Origin: Candidatus Omnitrophica bacterium CG08_land_8_20_14_0_20_41_16
GTDB lineage: Bacteria > Omnitrophota > Gorgyraeia > Gygaellales > Profunditerraquicolaceae
DNA: 34,173 nucleotides
Reading direction: 5' to 3'
NCBI GenBank assembly: GCA_002774445.1
Contig: PEYI01000056.1
Span: forward strand, 1-34,173
A program made the translations under genes and the position numbers. Position 1 is the stretch's first letter; every line of letters starts with the position of its first letter. Positions 1,131 to 7,221 of this stretch are shown here, piece after piece. The notes under the pieces are model-generated. The model was not told the origin of the DNA, did no database searches, and was given only the letters and a program-made list of their open reading frames with translations.

Positions 1131-3284
1131 TTACATTAAAGGCTTCATTGAAATTGCCGGATGTTTAACCTTATTTAGGAAACTTAACAGCTCATCCGAA
1201 GTCGTAGCAACTGTTTCATCCGCAATCTGTTCCAACAAATTCGGTTCCCCTATTTCACAAGCCAGCTTCTTTAATCTCTCCCCTAATAATTCCTTTAATT
1301 CTTTAGGCATCCAAACTAACCGCCTTAATCCTCCCTCAGCTGAAATAAACTTCTTACTCAAGATATATAATTTCCCTATTCCCAAGAATCCAGGAGTCTG
1401 CACCCCCCCTCCCACTAACCCGGCTAAAGTAGTAAAACTCATGCCCGAAGGAGTCATACCGGAATAATCGCGATGCACTACCATAACACCGTTAGCCTCG
1501 GGAATAATCGCGACAATACACTCAAAGCAGCCGCAAGATGACATCGGAGAATCCATTAAAGAATACATACTCACTTTATCTATGCTTTTATTAGACTTAT
1601 TTTTTACAAATTCATTTATATTATCCCACTGGCCCAATCTTTTATCCAAAACCCGGCCTTTTGGTATAGGTTGATTCGGGCCCGTAGGCATAATCTCAAA
1701 AGCCGCCTTGGCATCCAACCACGAATATGCCCCGCATAAGCCTAAACGTTCGGGGGTAACGACACAAACATGGTTAGGCGCAAAGGACTGGCAGAGTAAA
1801 CAGGAAAAGTAAGTGTCTACACTTTCATCGGTCATCCCGCTAAGGCGCTCGTCGCGCTCGTCGAAAACCTTCTTTGCTTTGCCTTGCAATTTCTCAACAT
1901 CCTCTTTTTTAGTATATAAATTGACCTGAACTTTATCTACGATTGCGCTATATTCCTGATGCAGCATGGCATGTAGTATTACACCTATATGTTTTAATCT
2001 GAAACCCTTGGTAAAAGCGTCCTTGCTTATCCGAATCCAGTTCATATCGCGCTGGCCCACATGCATTAAACCCATAGCATAATTTACAAAACGGTGTATC
2101 TGGCGTTCTAAGACCGGCTCAAAGTCATTTTGCATTTTGCGGCCGTAAACATCTACGATAATAGCCAATGGCAGAGACTTGCTCCCCGGCTCTAAGCGAT
2201 CAATATCCGGGCCGGTTAGCTCAACCTTGCCATCCTCTACTTCATCTTCTTTTTTTGAAGTTAAAAATTCAAAGGCCAAACTCGCCCGGCCTCCGAATTC
2301 AACTTGCAATTGTTCTTTTCTTACCCTCTCTCCTTCAAACGCCGCGGCGTACGGAACAGGCACAGCCACTTCCGCCATCTTTACTTTAATCCCGCGGGTA
2401 ATGATACATTTAGAAGGAAGTTTTTTATAATCTTTCTCCGTTACTAAAGCCTCAAACAGAGTCGTATCAATTTTACCTAACTGCGGGACATCTAAATCCG
2501 TTATGACAGGCAGGCCGAATGCCAGCCCGCCAAAGCCTGTTGCCACAATCACTTCATCTACATGACCTAAGAGCAAGATGAAAGCCGGGACGCGGTTACG
2601 GATATATTCCGCTATCCCCTGCCATTGCCCGGGCTTAAAACCACCGTAAATTAAAGGCGCGCGCACCGCAAAGTTTACCGCATAAATTACGGATAAATAA
2701 TCGCTGCCTAAAGGAACAATATAATTCTCTAAGCCTAATTCTACACCCTTGCCTTCTAACTGCTTTTGTAAAGTATTTCCTTTAATATTACCGGCTAAGA
2801 GGCTGACAATACCTTTAGATTGAAAATCGCGGATTAAGCCAACTGCCGAAGGAGCGTCTTTTGCCGGCCCTAAAATTACGGCTATACCGGATATTCTCCC
2901 ATCAACAAGCTGCAGCCCCAAAGAGCGCAGGATTTTATCCGGGATAAAGCCTATTCCGTCTTTAGGATGATCGTTGTTTAGCACTGCCAAAGCTGCCAAT
3001 ATTTCTTCGCAAAGCAAAGTAGCAATACCCTTATTAAATATTCCGCCTAAGTAAGGAATCAAATTTAACCCTTCAATTTCTTTTAGAACTTTAACTAAAT
3101 CACCCAAACTCTTAACCTCTATATTAAGCAAGGCATTAATTAAGGGCAGGTAATAATTCGTCTCCGGGAAAGAAACCTGCGCATCTTTGCAGGACTTAGC
3201 AATCGCCGCATCCAGCGATTTACGGGTTAAATTTAATACCGCGTCCGCACCTTTCTCACCTAACTGCGTTAATATCTCTGACAT
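1131..3284 (-). CDS. acsB: Acetyl-CoA synthase, bacterial type (CO dehydrogenase/ACS complex)
   Basis: This is the Wood-Ljungdahl enzyme that joins CO, a methyl group from the corrinoid protein and CoA into acetyl-CoA. At 717 residues it has the full three-domain bacterial length (Moorella is 729), not the short archaeal CdhC form. All nickel-iron A-cluster ligands are present: C495, C498, C507 and C517, then C584-G585-C586. The spacings equal those of the Moorella enzyme (506/509/518/528/595-597). The start is well placed, with AGGAG about 6 bases upstream. It overlaps the preceding oxidoreductase gene by 29 bases and is the last gene of the metF run. The partner genes acsA, acsC, acsD and acsE are not in the window. 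No missing residue suggests loss of function. Confidence 0.97.
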   Translation of the reverse strand: MSEILTQLGEKGADAVLNLTRKSLDAAIAKSCKDAQVSFPETNYYLPLINALLNIEVKSLGDLVKVLKEIEGLNLIPYLGGIFNKGIATLLCEEILAALAVLNNDHPKDGIGFIPDKILRSLGLQLVDGRISGIAVILGPAKDAPSAVGLIRDFQSKGIVSLLAGNIKGNTLQKQLEGKGVELGLENYIVPLGSDYLSVIYAVNFAVRAPLIYGGFKPGQWQGIAEYIRNRVPAFILLLGHVDEVIVATGFGGLAFGLPVITDLDVPQLGKIDTTLFEALVTEKDYKKLPSKCIITRGIKVKMAEVAVPVPYAAAFEGERVRKEQLQVEFGGRASLAFEFLTSKKEDEVEDGKVELTGPDIDRLEPGSKSLPLAIIVDVYGRKMQNDFEPVLERQIHRFVNYAMGLMHVGQRDMNWIRISKDAFTKGFRLKHIGVILHAMLHQEYSAIVDKVQVNLYTKKEDVEKLQGKAKKVFDERDERLSGMTDESVDTYFSCLLCQSFAPNHVCVVTPERLGLCGAYSWLDAKAAFEIMPTGPNQPIPKGRVLDKRLGQWDNINEFVKNKSNKSIDKVSMYSLMDSPMSSCGCFECIVAIIPEANGVMVVHRDYSGMTPSGMSFTTLAGLVGGGVQTPGFLGIGKLYILSKKFISAEGGLRRLVWMPKELKELLGERLKKLACEIGEPNLLEQIADETVATTSDELLSFLNKVKHPAISMKPLM

Positions 3285-4137
3285 TTTCTTCTCCTAATTT
3301 GTTAATTATGTGATCCACCAGCATCATACTTATTACTACGCTATCCTTACGCACGACACTTCCGCAGGCAAAAATATCCACATTATTGGTGCGCATCCAT
3401 CCGTTCACCAGTACAAAATCATCTTTAACCTGAATATCCGTATTTTTTAAGAAGTCAATATTTGATTTATAGTTATCCATAAATAAAACCGCGCATACAC
3501 CTAATGCCTTGCCGCTGGCTAACTTAACCGCCTGAGTTTCCCCCTCGCCGATTATCTCTTGCACAGAATCATGAATAACTTCTGTGTTCTGAGGAATTTG
3601 GGAAGGATCAAATGCAACGCGGCTTAAAAGTTTTATCTCAACACCATACTTTTCCGAGACTGCCTCGGCCAATTTCAGCGCAAAACTATTGCTGCCCACA
3701 ATACAAACCGGATGCGCTATATAACGTTTAAGGAAATCCTTAGCGTCATCCAAGGTATAAAGCCGGTAAACACCTTCTTTTTTAGCGCCCGGGAGATCGG
3801 GGATAACCGGACCCCTGCCGGAAGCAATCACCAAGATATCGTAGTTAATACTGCCTTTGTCCTTAAAATAAACCAGCTCCTTCTGGATATTGAGGCCTCC
3901 GGCTTTCTTGTTCTTAATAAGGTTTATATTTTGCTTTGAGTAATCTTCCTCATTACAGAGGAAAATATCTTTTTCGCTTATTGTCCCGCTTATAAGGTCT
4001 GGTAGTTTTAAATGGTCATAGGCAGGATAATTCTCCTCGCTAATCAGGGTTATTTTGCACGCCTTATTCTTTTCTCTTAAACGCCAGGCGACGTTATGCC
4101 CCGAAACCGAAGCTCCGATAATAACTATATTATTCAT
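3256..4137 (-). CDS. Short FAD/NAD(P)-type oxidoreductase with degenerate cofactor motifs
   Basis: The 293-residue protein has the two-Rossmann layout of NAD(P)H-nitrite reductase/rubredoxin reductase relatives but lacks their C-terminal dimerisation domain. The FAD motif is GASVSG (8-13) instead of GxGxxG. The middle ATG-type motif is weakened (IASGRGPVIPDLPG). The NAD motif is GSNSFA (148-153). The late A-x-GD motif that contacts FAD reads ACGSV, so the acidic residue is Ser260. It could still bind FAD loosely, or serve as a structural or electron-relay partner. It overlaps metF by 4 bases (ATGA) and acsB by 29, so it is translationally coupled to both. An electron-transfer role with MetF or the CODH/ACS complex is inferred from context. 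The family is clear; the specific substrate is not. Confidence 0.8.
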   Translation of the reverse strand: MNNIVIIGASVSGHNVAWRLREKNKACKITLISEENYPAYDHLKLPDLISGTISEKDIFLCNEEDYSKQNINLIKNKKAGGLNIQKELVYFKDKGSINYDILVIASGRGPVIPDLPGAKKEGVYRLYTLDDAKDFLKRYIAHPVCIVGSNSFALKLAEAVSEKYGVEIKLLSRVAFDPSQIPQNTEVIHDSVQEIIGEGETQAVKLASGKALGVCAVLFMDNYKSNIDFLKNTDIQVKDDFVLVNGWMRTNNVDIFACGSVVRKDSVVISMMLVDHIINKLGEENVRDINAVR

Positions 4138-5003
4138 AGCGCCGAGGCGTCTAATACGCGCGGTACCACTTTACCCCATCCAATTGACATAATATGTATT
4201 CCGTCGCATATAGGTTTTAATTCTTTGATCAGGCGTGAGGCGATTTCAACTGACCGCGCTACTTTATCCTGCGCCCCTTCTATTTCTTTAATTAAATTAT
4301 CCGGAACAAATACGCCGGCAACATTTTTATTCATATATTTAGCCATACCTGCGGACTTAAGCAAGACTATACCCGCCATAATTTTAGTTTTTAGGTGTTT
4401 GGTTTTATTTAAGAAATTCTCAAAAACTTTTAGGTCATAAACTGCCTGAGTCTGGAAAAATTCGGCGCCCGCGGCGATTTTCTTCTCCATCTTCATAATC
4501 TGGGGCTCTAAAGGGTCTGCGCCGGGATTGACTACCGCACCTAAGCAGAATTTCGGTGACGCCCCAAGTAGTTTATTCTCATTCATATCAGAACCTTCCT
4601 GAAGTCTCCTTGCTGCCTGCAGCAATTGTACCGAATCCAAGTCAAATACTGGCTTGGCATTCGGATGGTCGCCTAAAGTAGTATGGTCTCCGGTAAGTAT
4701 CAAAACATTTTCAATACCTAAAGCGGCGGCGGACAAAAGGTCTGATTGCAGCGCTAAACGGTTGCGGTCGCGGCAGGCCATCTGAAATATCGGCTCAAAA
4801 CCATGCTGCTTTAAGATGCTGCATACTGCGAGCGAACCAAGGCGCATCACCGAACTCTGCAAATCCGTAACATTAATCGCATCAACGCGGGTGCGGATAA
4901 GCTCAGCATCTTCCAAAAGCTGCTTAGTCTCAATCCCTTTCGGCGGCCCAATCTCCGACGTCACCAAAAACTTCCCGGCTTGTAATTTTTCTTTGAAAGT
5001 CAT
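4134..5003 (-). CDS. metF: 5,10-methylenetetrahydrofolate reductase
   Basis: MetF reduces methylene-THF to methyl-THF, the methyl donor for acetyl-CoA synthesis (and for methionine). The protein has 289 residues, close to the family norm, and folds as a TIM barrel. The catalytic glutamate lies in TSEIGPPKG (residue 17). The FAD-binding barrel motifs include DAINVTDLQ, QMACRDRNR, LILTGDH and the FQTQAVYD strand. No strong ribosome site precedes the ATG; the leader reads AAAGTAAT. The small zinc subunit MetV found with some acetogen MetF proteins is not visible nearby. The next gene overlaps by 4 bases. Its place directly before the oxidoreductase and acsB points to the Wood-Ljungdahl methyl branch rather than only methionine synthesis. 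Confidence 0.95.
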   Translation of the reverse strand: MTFKEKLQAGKFLVTSEIGPPKGIETKQLLEDAELIRTRVDAINVTDLQSSVMRLGSLAVCSILKQHGFEPIFQMACRDRNRLALQSDLLSAAALGIENVLILTGDHTTLGDHPNAKPVFDLDSVQLLQAARRLQEGSDMNENKLLGASPKFCLGAVVNPGADPLEPQIMKMEKKIAAGAEFFQTQAVYDLKVFENFLNKTKHLKTKIMAGIVLLKSAGMAKYMNKNVAGVFVPDNLIKEIEGAQDKVARSVEIASRLIKELKPICDGIHIMSIGWGKVVPRVLDASAL

Positions 5004-5014
5004 ATTACTTTATA

Positions 5015-5188
5015 ATTTTAGCGGTCCTGTCTTGTCTTGTTCTCGCAGCACCGCTCGATTTTCCCCACCGAGGAAAATCTCGCTTGGAGTTTCTGCTCGC
5101 TCGCCCCGACTTTGTAATTAGCTTGGGCACCTTGGCCGCTCGCACAAACTACATGCTGCTCGAATCAAGCCAATCCACCCGCTAAAAT
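5015..5188 (-). ncRNA. Structured element, copy C (tandem-GA family)
   Basis: This fills the gap between the NYN gene and metF. The outer arms are ATTTTAGCGG / CCGCTAAAAT (5015-5024, 5179-5188). Inside, reading the minus strand, is the family's basal motif: CTTG, a bulged A, TTC, GA, GCAGCA on one side, opposite TGCTGC, GA, GAA, CAAG. This gives continuous pairs with tandem G-A/A-G pairs in the middle. CTTG/CAAG replaces the CGTG/CACG of the other two copies. A further hairpin pairs GATTTTCC with GGAAAATC. The centre differs from copies A and B, so this is a shorter or diverged member. It would form part of the metF leader if read through. Function unknown. Confidence 0.55.
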
Positions 5189-5199
5189 AGAAGCATCGT

Positions 5200-5811
5200 T
5201 TATTTCCATGTATTAGGACGAGCTAACTTAACGCCACCGTCTATGGTTACAACGTCTTCAAATTGACTAGTAGCTAAATGCTTTTCTTTCAACTTCATAT
5301 GAAAATCTACCACTTGTTTTAACTCTTCAGCTCGCCTCCCTATTGGAATTACCAAACCAATTCGTTTCTCAGGAAAAGTAGTTTTTACAGCTTGTATTGC
5401 CGGTATTAAATCGCTATCTCCAGAAACAATTATAGCGGTATCCCAAAGATCCTGGACAGCTGTTTGTAAAAGCTTAATAGCTATATTAACATCAGTCTGT
5501 TTTTCCTCAAAAATTTTGTATTGCTTGTGGCAAATTCGGCAGAACTTATCGACATATCTAAAAGCTCCAAAAACAACCTCAACACCTACAGATTGCAATG
5601 CTTTAACATATGTCTGATGCTTAACCAGCTTAACCTGATCCCAAGTAACATAGGTAGTAAAATAAAGTACCTTCTCGACTTTATCATGCGAGGTTACAAA
5701 ACAATGAGCTAACTTATTAAGATTAAGCCATTTATATTTATTGTAAAGTGGATTGGAATCTAAGGAGGGGTAGAGATTAAAACCGTCAATAAAAAAAGCT
5801 ATTCTATTCAT
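5200..5811 (-). CDS. NYN-domain (PIN-like, LabA/DUF88) putative ribonuclease
   Basis: The 203-residue protein has the acidic pattern of NYN nucleases: FIDGFNLY (D9), KQTDVNIAIKLL (D107) and SGDSDLIPAI (D132, D134). A C-x2-C-H (91-95) sits between strands and could bind zinc. Family members are metal-dependent RNases or RNA-binding proteins; the target here is unknown. The ATG has no ribosome-binding site and lies 9 bases after the T-tract of a terminator hairpin. Expression therefore appears to depend on read-through, or translation is inefficient. The gene has its own promoter (5888-5916), separating it from the folD run upstream. It is followed by structured element C. Confidence 0.85.
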   Translation of the reverse strand: MNRIAFFIDGFNLYPSLDSNPLYNKYKWLNLNKLAHCFVTSHDKVEKVLYFTTYVTWDQVKLVKHQTYVKALQSVGVEVVFGAFRYVDKFCRICHKQYKIFEEKQTDVNIAIKLLQTAVQDLWDTAIIVSGDSDLIPAIQAVKTTFPEKRIGLVIPIGRRAEELKQVVDFHMKLKEKHLATSQFEDVVTIDGGVKLARPNTWK

Positions 5812-5819
5812 AGGATAAT

Positions 5820-5848
5820 AAAAAACCCGAACTCACGAGAAGTTCGGG
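5820..5848 (-). terminator. Rho-independent terminator just before the NYN start codon
   Basis: On the minus strand, CCCGAACT pairs with AGTTCGGG (perfect 8 bp, 7-base loop) and six T residues follow at once (5825-5820). The start codon is 9 bases further on. It can end the short RNA described at 5820-5880 or act as an attenuator for the NYN gene. Confidence 0.8.
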
Positions 5849-5880
5849 GCCAGCAAGATACGAGATCTCGCTGGGATGAT
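5820..5880 (-). ncRNA. Candidate twin-hairpin small RNA or attenuator leader
   Basis: From the likely start near 5880 the transcript contains two back-to-back hairpins and a T-tract. Hairpin 1 (5850-5874) pairs CCAGCGAGAT with ATCTTGCTGG, with one G-U pair and the loop CTCGT. Hairpin 2 is the terminator at 5826-5848. Both loops contain CTCGT, which suggests a shared binding sequence rather than chance. The unit is complete: strong promoter, about 60 nt of structure, terminator. It could be a free small RNA or the attenuated leader of the NYN mRNA. I do not recognise it as a known family. Confidence 0.55.
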
Positions 5881-5887
5881 GACATTA

Positions 5888-5916
5888 TTTATACCACAAC
5901 TACGCATGACAGTCAA
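5888..5916 (-). promoter_or_regulatory. Sigma-70-type promoter for the NYN leader RNA
   Basis: On the minus strand TTGACT (5916-5911) and TATAAA (5893-5888) are separated by exactly 17 bases. The predicted start falls near 5880, just ahead of the first hairpin. Confidence 0.75.
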
Positions 5917-5940
5917 TCTTTTTCTTTCTATTCTGTTTAA

Positions 5941-5969
5941 AGTATACCACATAAATCCCGCTTTTTAAA
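5941..5969 (-). promoter_or_regulatory. Possible second, upstream promoter (extended -10)
   Basis: TGG-TATACT (minus strand, -10 at 5946-5941) has a weak -35, TTTAAA, 17 bases upstream (5969-5964). It would add a longer leader to the NYN transcript. The remaining sequence from 5970 to 6113 is AT-rich and holds nothing I can assign. Confidence 0.35.
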
Positions 5970-6113
5970 TGTTCAACCTACTTTATTTGTCTCGATAATT
6001 CCGGGTCACAATATTTAATTAACCCTCTCTTTGTAATTAAGTATTGTATCCCTATAATTCTTGATGATGATATTCTGCCCCTATTGGATCCGAAAATAAA
6101 TCCCATCTTAATA

Positions 6114-6342
6114 AATGAATCTGGCGTGATTTCGAGCGAATGGAGATTTTAGGCAAAGCAGCTCGAGTATTTTTGGGAATCCCGATGTCCCGCGAAAGCG
6201 TGACAATATCGGGACGGCGATGCTGTTCGAGTCCCGAGCAAGAGTGCGAGGGATGAGTTCAGCAGCCGCCAAAAATACGAGAGACCTTTGCCGTGCCCGT
6301 GAGGGCAAAATCGACCTGAGCGAGAAACACGGCAGATTCATT
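6114..6342 (+). ncRNA. Structured element, copy A (tandem-GA family)
   Basis: This 229-base element lies between folD and the NYN unit, read on the plus strand. The terminal arms are AATGAATCTG / CAGATTCATT. The basal motif pairs CGTG, bulged A, TTTC, GA, GC (6125-6137) with GC, GA, GAAA, CACG (6320-6331). Further stems are GATTTT/AAAATC, GGCAAAG/CTTTGCC and GTATTTTTGG/CCAAAAATAC. Next come CCCGAT/ATCGGG, enclosing a CGC-GAAA-GCG hairpin, and a domain whose tip has a second tandem GA motif. An extra GCCC-GTGA-GGGC hairpin sits in the 3' half. It is homologous to the copy at 11368-11583, with compensating changes in several stems. It points against the local genes. Function unknown. Confidence 0.65.
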
Positions 6343-6378
6343 AAAGAACAATTATATGTTAGGAACAGTTCCTTCAAT

Positions 6379-7221
6379 TTACTGCTGTAACTTTGCTGCT
6401 TCCACTAAGTTACGCATTAGCATTGTCACGGTTAATGGGCCGACGCCGCCGGGAACCGGCGTAATCCAGGAAGCGTGCTTTTCCGCTGGCTCAAACTCTA
6501 GATCACCGACAATCTTATCGGCTACCCGATTTATCCCGACATCAATCACAATTGCGCCTTCTTTCACCCAATCGCCTTTGATTAAACCCGCTTTTCCTAC
6601 TGCTACAATTAAAATCTCGGCAGTCCTGACGTGTTCTTCTAATTTTCCTGCCTTAGAGGTTCCAATATGGCAAACTGTAACTGTCGCGAATTTATCTAAT
6701 AATAAAAGTGAAAGCGGCTTGCCGACGATTTCACTGTGTCCAACCACTACTGCCTCTTTACCGTATAAATCTACGCCAGTTTCCTTTAATAACTCCATTA
6801 CTGCCGCAGCTGTGCAAGGCAAAATTTTCGCCTTGCCGAAAACAATCTTACCTATATTAACCGGATGCATACCTTCTACATCCTTTTCCGGTAAAATAAA
6901 CTGGCTGATTTTTTTATAGTCTATTTGTGCCGGTAAAGGCATCTGGATAATGATGCCGTTCACGGACTTATCGGCGTTTAATTTCTTGATAAAGTCAATC
7001 AGCGTAGCTTCACTGGTATCTTGAGCTAAATTATGCAATTTATACTCAATACCTAAATTTTCCGCGACTTTGGTCTGCGACTTGACATAGCTGACGGCAC
7101 CCGCATTCTCTCCGGCCATTATACTGGCTAAAACCGGCTTATGCTTTAAGGCTTGCACCTCTTGTTTTATTTCTTCTTTTATTTTCTCGGCTATGGGTTT
7201 ACCCTCTAATAATTTTGCCAA
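6379..7221 (-). CDS. folD: FolD: methylene-THF dehydrogenase, cyclohydrolase site altered
   Basis: The 280-residue protein has the FolD fold, with the nucleotide-binding motif VVVGHSEIVGKPLSLLL and the C-terminal PVPGGVGPLTVTMLMRN. In the active site, Y45 and the QMPLP glutamine are kept. The position of the catalytic lysine (E. coli K54, human K56) is Gln49, in SYVKSQTK. The second conserved acid (E. coli D121, human D125) is Glu, in KDVEG. From published mutants, loss of this lysine abolishes cyclohydrolase but can leave dehydrogenase activity. The start is TTG with GGAGG 6 bases upstream, inside the end of fchA (23-base overlap). FolD here probably works as the dehydrogenase while FchA supplies the cyclohydrolase step for the Wood-Ljungdahl methyl branch. 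Confidence 0.95.
   Translation of the reverse strand: MAKLLEGKPIAEKIKEEIKQEVQALKHKPVLASIMAGENAGAVSYVKSQTKVAENLGIEYKLHNLAQDTSEATLIDFIKKLNADKSVNGIIIQMPLPAQIDYKKISQFILPEKDVEGMHPVNIGKIVFGKAKILPCTAAAVMELLKETGVDLYGKEAVVVGHSEIVGKPLSLLLLDKFATVTVCHIGTSKAGKLEEHVRTAEILIVAVGKAGLIKGDWVKEGAIVIDVGINRVADKIVGDLEFEPAEKHASWITPVPGGVGPLTVTMLMRNLVEAAKLQQ

Follow-up and report, generated by a model that had tools for sequence, protein, structure and literature searches.

The window, by which we mean the whole 34,173-nt stretch of DNA analysed here, carries between folD and metF a cassette whose elements all lie on the minus strand and follow one another in the order promoter, twin-hairpin RNA, terminator and NYN gene (Table 1). 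A first-pass annotation had described a TTGACT-17-TATAAA promoter, about 60 nt with two hairpins, and a T6 run behind the second hairpin with the NYN start close by and no ribosome site, and each of these elements was recovered. The promoter, P2, consists of TTGACT at 5916-5911, a 17-nt spacer and TATAAA at 5893-5888; the latter was not listed by our consensus scan because the scan rule needs a T at position 6 of the -10 element. The distance from P2 to the 5' end of the RNA is nearly fixed across the group, and A5880 is the probable transcription start. The two hairpins are separated by the single-base linker C5849, the intrinsic terminator was recovered by the consensus scan, and 8 nt lie between T6 and the NYN ATG at 5811. 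No Shine-Dalgarno sequence was found between the U-run and the NYN start, either in the window (5809-5825) or in the closest Omnitrophota members with their 7-10 nt gap; GGAG-like sites are present before NYN in some distant members. Upstream of P2 lies a second promoter, P1. In several of the pairwise comparisons the cassette reaches, on its 5' side, exactly to the -35 element of P1, and DNA similarity to three homologous loci (L006, L008 and L016) starts at -158, i.e., at 5969. Promoters, RNA and NYN gene (~5969-5200) are, taken together, common to unrelated loci. P1, the conserved 5' end of the RNA and this sharing of the entire cassette go beyond the first-pass description. The spacer between folD and the cassette (6108-6377) is GC-richer than its flanks and resembles a dispersed repeat-type element, and the minus-strand open frame within it is probably no gene.

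Table 1 Features of the RNA-NYN cassette in the window
Feature	Position	Strand	Basis or remark
Promoter P1, TTTAAA-17-TATACT	5941..5969	-	consensus scan; also in the closest homologues
Promoter P2, TTGACT-17-TATAAA, sigma-70-like	5888..5916	-	fires into the RNA
Small RNA, 61 nt: AUCAUC, hairpin 1, C, hairpin 2, U6	5820..5880	-	fold z, conservation, covariation
Hairpin 1, 10 bp, loop CUCGU	5850..5874	-	fold; 7 of 10 pairs changed on both sides
Hairpin 2, 9 bp, loop CUCGU, intrinsic terminator stem	5826..5848	-	fold, scan; 4 of 9 pairs changed on both sides
Terminator U-run, T6	5820..5825	-	sequence, consensus scan
NYN-domain protein gene, 203 aa, HEC-09 family, putative RNase	5200..5811	-	Pfam, PADLOC, fold

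We then characterized the RNA by folding and comparative analysis. Folded alone, the 61-nt RNA reaches -27.4 kcal/mol, against -13.2 ± 2.6 kcal/mol for shuffled sequences (z = -5.4, equalled by 0 of 200 shuffles), and it adopts two independent, adjacent hairpins whose centroid matches the minimum-energy fold except at one pair. No mutually exclusive alternative structures were seen in this fold. The length is held at 59-62 nt in all close members. Over the 19 pairs in eleven distinct RNAs, 91% of cells are paired and 11 pairs have changed on both sides, yielding a covariation score of 0.46, compared with 0.26 for shuffles (0/500) and at most 0.19 for slid controls. Since the fold reaches z = -5.4 and 11 of 19 pairs show double-sided changes, the twin-hairpin RNA is not a product of chance. 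Sequence conservation that goes beyond pairing is seen at the 5' end, which reads AUCAUCCC, and at the GGCCCC junction. The identical CTCGT loops claimed at first pass are exact at this locus, but only the nearest relatives share the sequence; elsewhere the apices read CCTCGTG/CCTGTG or CTTCGTG/CCTGTG, and both apices across the group tend to a looser Y..GU(G/A) pattern. The first-pass annotation would have been refuted by a lack of conserved loops or terminator in homologous loci; terminator and structure are conserved there, and the loop sequence only loosely so. The CTCGT..CTCGT pattern has four matches in the window's genome, fewer than in a backwards-read control. Rfam 15 gave no family at the RNA, neither in the window at the gathering threshold nor at 13 further loci at a lenient threshold.

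The protein encoded downstream matches only NYN in Pfam (6.1e-13) and the PADLOC family HEC-09 (PDLC04163) with 1.8e-60 over residues 1-203 of 203, which makes it a full-length member. Residues D9, N12, D107, D132 and D134 are invariant. Its AlphaFold model has a pLDDT of 92.8, and the best solved-structure match of the fold is VPA0982 (2qip), which we take to be a NYN-type protein; a search of the PDB by sequence returned no relative. The protein combines the domain, the acidic residues and the modelled fold of a NYN nuclease and is a putative RNase. The abbreviation HEC denotes "Hma-embedded candidates" for defence, and antiviral activity has been demonstrated for several HECs (PMC12988326). 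For HEC-09 itself, we found no demonstrated defence activity or published test in the open-access literature, and the family correlated with phage susceptibility in one Pseudomonas survey (PMC12447246).

To follow the pairing of RNA and gene, NYN relatives were drawn from species-level genomes and, within the phylum of the window, from 285 Omnitrophota genomes; many family members stem from metagenome assemblies. The same arrangement was observed at every close NYN relative with readable upstream DNA, in Omnitrophota, an Ignavibacteria and a Desulfobacteraceae, and more loosely in a Zixibacteria genome. Among the assessable close Omnitrophota relatives no intact NYN without the RNA was found (one further case, G132, is cut by a contig end). 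We also searched with a covariance model built from the eleven RNA sequences, to which the window RNA, itself part of the building set, scores 84.2 bits. Across the 285 Omnitrophota genomes the model gave 19 strong matches, 11 of them before an intact NYN, two before a NYN with its middle deleted (G024/L083 and G064/L088) and six without NYN. Applied to 297 Desulfobacterota-phylum genomes, the model returned the known match and two new ones, both followed by NYN genes (56% and 50% identity), and a pattern scan of viral contigs combined with the model yielded one strong match, again followed by a NYN gene, on an element that also encodes a putative serine recombinase and a KAP NTPase. Searches that started from the RNA alone led back to NYN genes in this way: the two Desulfobacterota genes and the viral-contig NYN all lie outside the building set of the model. 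None of the 80 viral-contig loci obtained with a loose RNA pattern and searched with the model was real, one of 15 matches to a stricter pattern was, and a peptide-pattern search of the viral contigs found no close NYN relatives. Omnitrophota and Desulfobacterota matches below about 35 bits were taken as chance unless a NYN gene follows; by this rule L235 (33 bits) is real and L236-L238 are not.

The genes around solitary RNA copies include HsdM, AbiEi/AbiEii and HipA. At L086, a solitary RNA with promoter (5056-5115) lies directly upstream of an AbiEi/AbiEii pair (3240-4963), with a HipA-like gene nearby. DUF6933 genes (PF22016) occur near two solitary copies in different genomes (L084:2045-2641 and L085:2551-3174), and at L085 a DUF3800 gene immediately follows the RNA copy. 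A link to DUF3800 RNA motifs was set aside, L085 being a single case with no Rfam match.

NYN has a patchy distribution, being absent from the two other genomes of the genus that we searched and from most of the family. Counted from the NYN start, DNA similarity between unrelated loci extends from roughly -140/-170 to +611, covering promoters, RNA and gene. The genes folD and metF are close together in many relatives, and in G149, where NYN is located elsewhere, the gap between them is 20 nt. At L011 the neighbours include a type I restriction specificity gene. In addition, several members reside on enterobacterial plasmids of 3.5-5.7 kb with three to five annotated genes, and of 5,426 complete E. 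coli genomes, 12 carry the L044 type and 10 the L275 type, on plasmids only. Judging from these comparisons, the RNA-NYN module is evidently horizontally mobile. As a separate observation, the folD-metF gap (5003-6379 in the window) is usually short in the family, often below 60 nt, and in several relatives (L249, L254, L257, L260, L263, L264 and L271) it measures 600-1350 nt with no NYN match inside. Some relatives have other insertions here, and the site seems to attract different ones.

Importantly, the RNA is retained where NYN is damaged. All eight damaged NYN copies examined keep the RNA: internal deletions with promoter and RNA intact in L083 and L088, in-frame stops in L290, L298 and L328, and frameshifts in L317, L320 and L323. 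Moreover, L084 and L086 carry the RNA with a promoter although NYN is absent. Of eight RNA copies without an intact NYN, four have a good promoter and the other four do not. An assembly error may lie behind single-base damage, and the damaged copies may be recent or misassembled, in which case RNA retention would reflect only too little time. A NYN that is broken while the RNA stays, together with no intact NYN that lacks the RNA among the assessable close Omnitrophota relatives, is the asymmetry expected of a toxin and its antitoxin.

Retention of the RNA could also be read in terms of movement, with the hairpins serving as the recognition sites of a selfish element whose movement NYN assists. 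The RNA-only copies would then be non-autonomous derivatives of this element. The cassette limits do agree at unrelated loci, and both L083 and L088 have lost the middle but kept the end with the RNA as well as the 3' end of NYN. However, the shared limits may simply mark the part that is selected for, the window's genome holds a single copy of the RNA/NYN cassette, and similarity stops at the stop codon, where no matching hairpin element is found. Moreover, NYN is an RNase-type fold, and the conserved promoter and U-run indicate transcription. We regard such a recognition-site role as quite improbable.

We next considered whether the pairing holds beyond the close relatives. All eleven relatives scanned match the PADLOC candidate defence family HEC-09, and full-length HEC-09 matches include relatives on plasmids of E. 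coli, Klebsiella, Leptospira, Thermus and others and in a phage record. Searching 297 genomes each of two other phyla for HEC-09 gave 19 and 34 positive genomes. A detector that requires a hairpin, a linker of at most 7 nt, a second hairpin and a U-run, within 200 nt upstream, recognised the RNA at 33 of 46 HEC-09 loci of these phyla (three of the 46 had already been encountered earlier in the analysis), against 0 of 97 other genes at the same loci. Most of the HEC-09 loci missed by the detector show two hairpins by eye. Two further RNA groups covary strongly, with 10 of 16 and 15 of 17 pairs changed on both sides (0/500 shuffles). In the NYN outgroup L302-L304, whose HEC-09 matches are weak or partial, the detector recognised no twin-hairpin RNA, so that this outgroup delimits the RNA-NYN association. 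Nor could a clear twin-hairpin RNA be made out in three of the plasmid members (L276, L280 and L048). These results also bear on the plainest account of the locus, an ordinary terminator of the upstream gene that sits before NYN by chance. Hairpin 2 with its U-run would make a good intrinsic terminator, but the RNA has its own promoter 8 nt upstream, its first hairpin covaries as well, and the detector found nothing at the 97 control genes, so that this account is hardly credible.

More importantly, the RNA is not tied to one orientation. It lies on the NYN strand at 24 of the 33 detected loci and is divergent, pointing away from NYN, at the other nine (L285, L286 and L305-L311); inspection by eye adds L312-L314, L045 from Thermus and L278 from Microbacterium to the divergent loci, and L287 has the RNA type of the divergent group, yet on the NYN strand. 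A tree of 71 proteins, which includes 11 divergent loci, requires a minimum of two changes to account for the divergent state. Since a leader cannot switch strand and remain a leader, the RNA is best seen as a gene of its own.

The first-pass annotation had offered two possibilities, a discrete small RNA or an attenuator, and the former is upheld by the conserved promoter and terminator, the strong covariation, the promoter-bearing copies without NYN and the divergent version. An attenuator would be a cis-acting leader, with a terminator autoregulating the NYN mRNA and bound or cut by the NYN protein. A place in the 5' leader of the NYN mRNA is indeed seen at the window locus. The RNA is on the same strand, only 7-10 nt separate its U-run from the NYN start among the closest relatives, and in 28 of the 46 loci of the two other phyla the terminator precedes the start, mostly by 7-38 nt. 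Read-through control may well coexist with another role in these same-strand branches. The divergent branch, in contrast, lacks this position, with nine loci by the detector and 11 on the tree where an opposite-strand RNA cannot lead the NYN mRNA. In addition, promoter-bearing RNA copies exist where there is no NYN gene to lead, and the hairpins are not mutually exclusive. A leader as the sole explanation is therefore unlikely.

We thus favour, as a somewhat probable reading, a compact mobile HEC-09 module of two components, a NYN nuclease and a dedicated ~60-nt twin-hairpin RNA that restrains it. Most transcripts from the strong promoter would stop at the terminator, providing RNA in excess, while a minority would read through, or start elsewhere, and allow the nuclease to be made. 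The RNA would most likely bind the NYN protein through its hairpins and keep it inactive, as in ToxI/ToxN and RCd22/AbiF; a disturbance of the balance, such as a phage infection, would release the NYN RNase, which could then damage RNA, giving a potentially toxic response with a possible role in defence. The earlier suggestion of an RNase acting on its own RNA agrees with this as far as an RNA-protein pairing goes; cleavage of the RNA and binding with inhibition look the same at the level of sequence.

An activating or guiding RNA would leave most of the traces that an inhibitory RNA leaves. The RNA might accordingly be a positive cofactor, a scaffold or activator of NYN in an active ribonucleoprotein effector. 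Obligate pairing and covariation are compatible with either sign, two hairpins with similar apices could serve as docking sites, and HEC-09 is a candidate defence effector. Nevertheless, the RNA outlasts NYN and never the reverse in the assessable close relatives, and an antidote therefore fits better than a helper; a variable guide segment is, moreover, lacking, since conservation extends over both the 5' end and the stems. We consider a positive cofactor possible but rather unlikely.

The proposed restraining RNA has a close counterpart in Clostridioides difficile, where RCd22, a short RNA with two motif copies and an intrinsic terminator, precedes abiF; most transcripts of that locus end at the terminator, and RCd22 neutralises AbiF in cis and trans (PMC12373285). 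Both systems are mobile and candidates for abortive infection, and both combine a promoter, a short RNA with two related motifs, a terminator and then a nuclease-type gene. A scheme like that of AbiF/RCd22 would explain why HEC-09 loci have a promoter, an RNA and a terminator, and also why their loss is asymmetric. The components differ, however. AbiF is an Abi_2/HEPN protein, whereas the HEC-09 protein matches only NYN in Pfam; the abiF RNA motif is RF03085, whereas no Rfam match was obtained at any HEC-09 locus scanned, at gathering or lenient thresholds; and RCd22 is always upstream and on the same strand in the described cases (PMC12373285), whereas the HEC-09 RNA can be divergent. Another case of an RNA antitoxin paired with a protein family other than ToxN is AvcID, in which the RNA antitoxin AvcI partners a deoxycytidylate deaminase (PMC10511110) instead of the NYN enzyme of HEC-09.

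PDLC04163 is a protein model alone, and the RNA partner is added by the present analysis; neither Rfam 15 nor the open-access literature searched describes an RNA that partners HEC-09 or a stand-alone NYN nuclease. Our comparisons suggest that the system, although listed as one gene, consists of an enzyme and its controlling RNA, resembling an RNA-type toxin-antitoxin. On the broader proposition, that HEC-09 represents a widespread system of RNA and NYN, either a toxin-antitoxin or one for abortive infection, whose twin-hairpin RNA antitoxins on either strand form a family not recognised before, and the first in which a NYN nuclease is governed by a small RNA of its own, we are evenly divided. 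A defence candidate known by its protein alone appears to have an RNA partner unrecorded by protein annotation, and tests in which the HEC-09 protein is expressed without this partner might overlook an activity or damage the host. If the reading is right, NYN joins the short list of nuclease types under RNA antitoxins, and Rfam would gain a new small RNA set spanning several phyla. The module is testable at once because members reside on tiny E. coli plasmids.

The layout also recalls the type III toxin-antitoxins ToxIN, CptIN and TenpIN, in which a promoter, a structured RNA and a terminator precede an endoribonuclease, the RNA of HEC-09 being assumed to be the inhibitor. Both the window locus and the same-strand branches have the terminator between RNA and putative toxin gene; the divergent branch, whose RNA departs from the type III layout, lacks it. 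The type III toxin has the ToxN/AbiQ fold, whereas the HEC-09 protein is NYN by Pfam and fold, and the type III antitoxin consists of tandem repeats, whereas the HEC-09 RNA is one twin-hairpin unit, two 28-nt repeats occurring only in L282 and L283. Because toxin fold and repeat structure both fail to agree, we do not place the module among the type III systems. These two loci, on Klebsiella plasmids, carry paired 28-nt direct repeats (GCGATTAAGTTACGC..., spacing 53) upstream of NYN (L282:1195-1275 and L283:561-641). These repeats sit in a structured stretch, their core occurs once in L275 and L281, and the pair comes closer to type III antitoxins in its repeat style.
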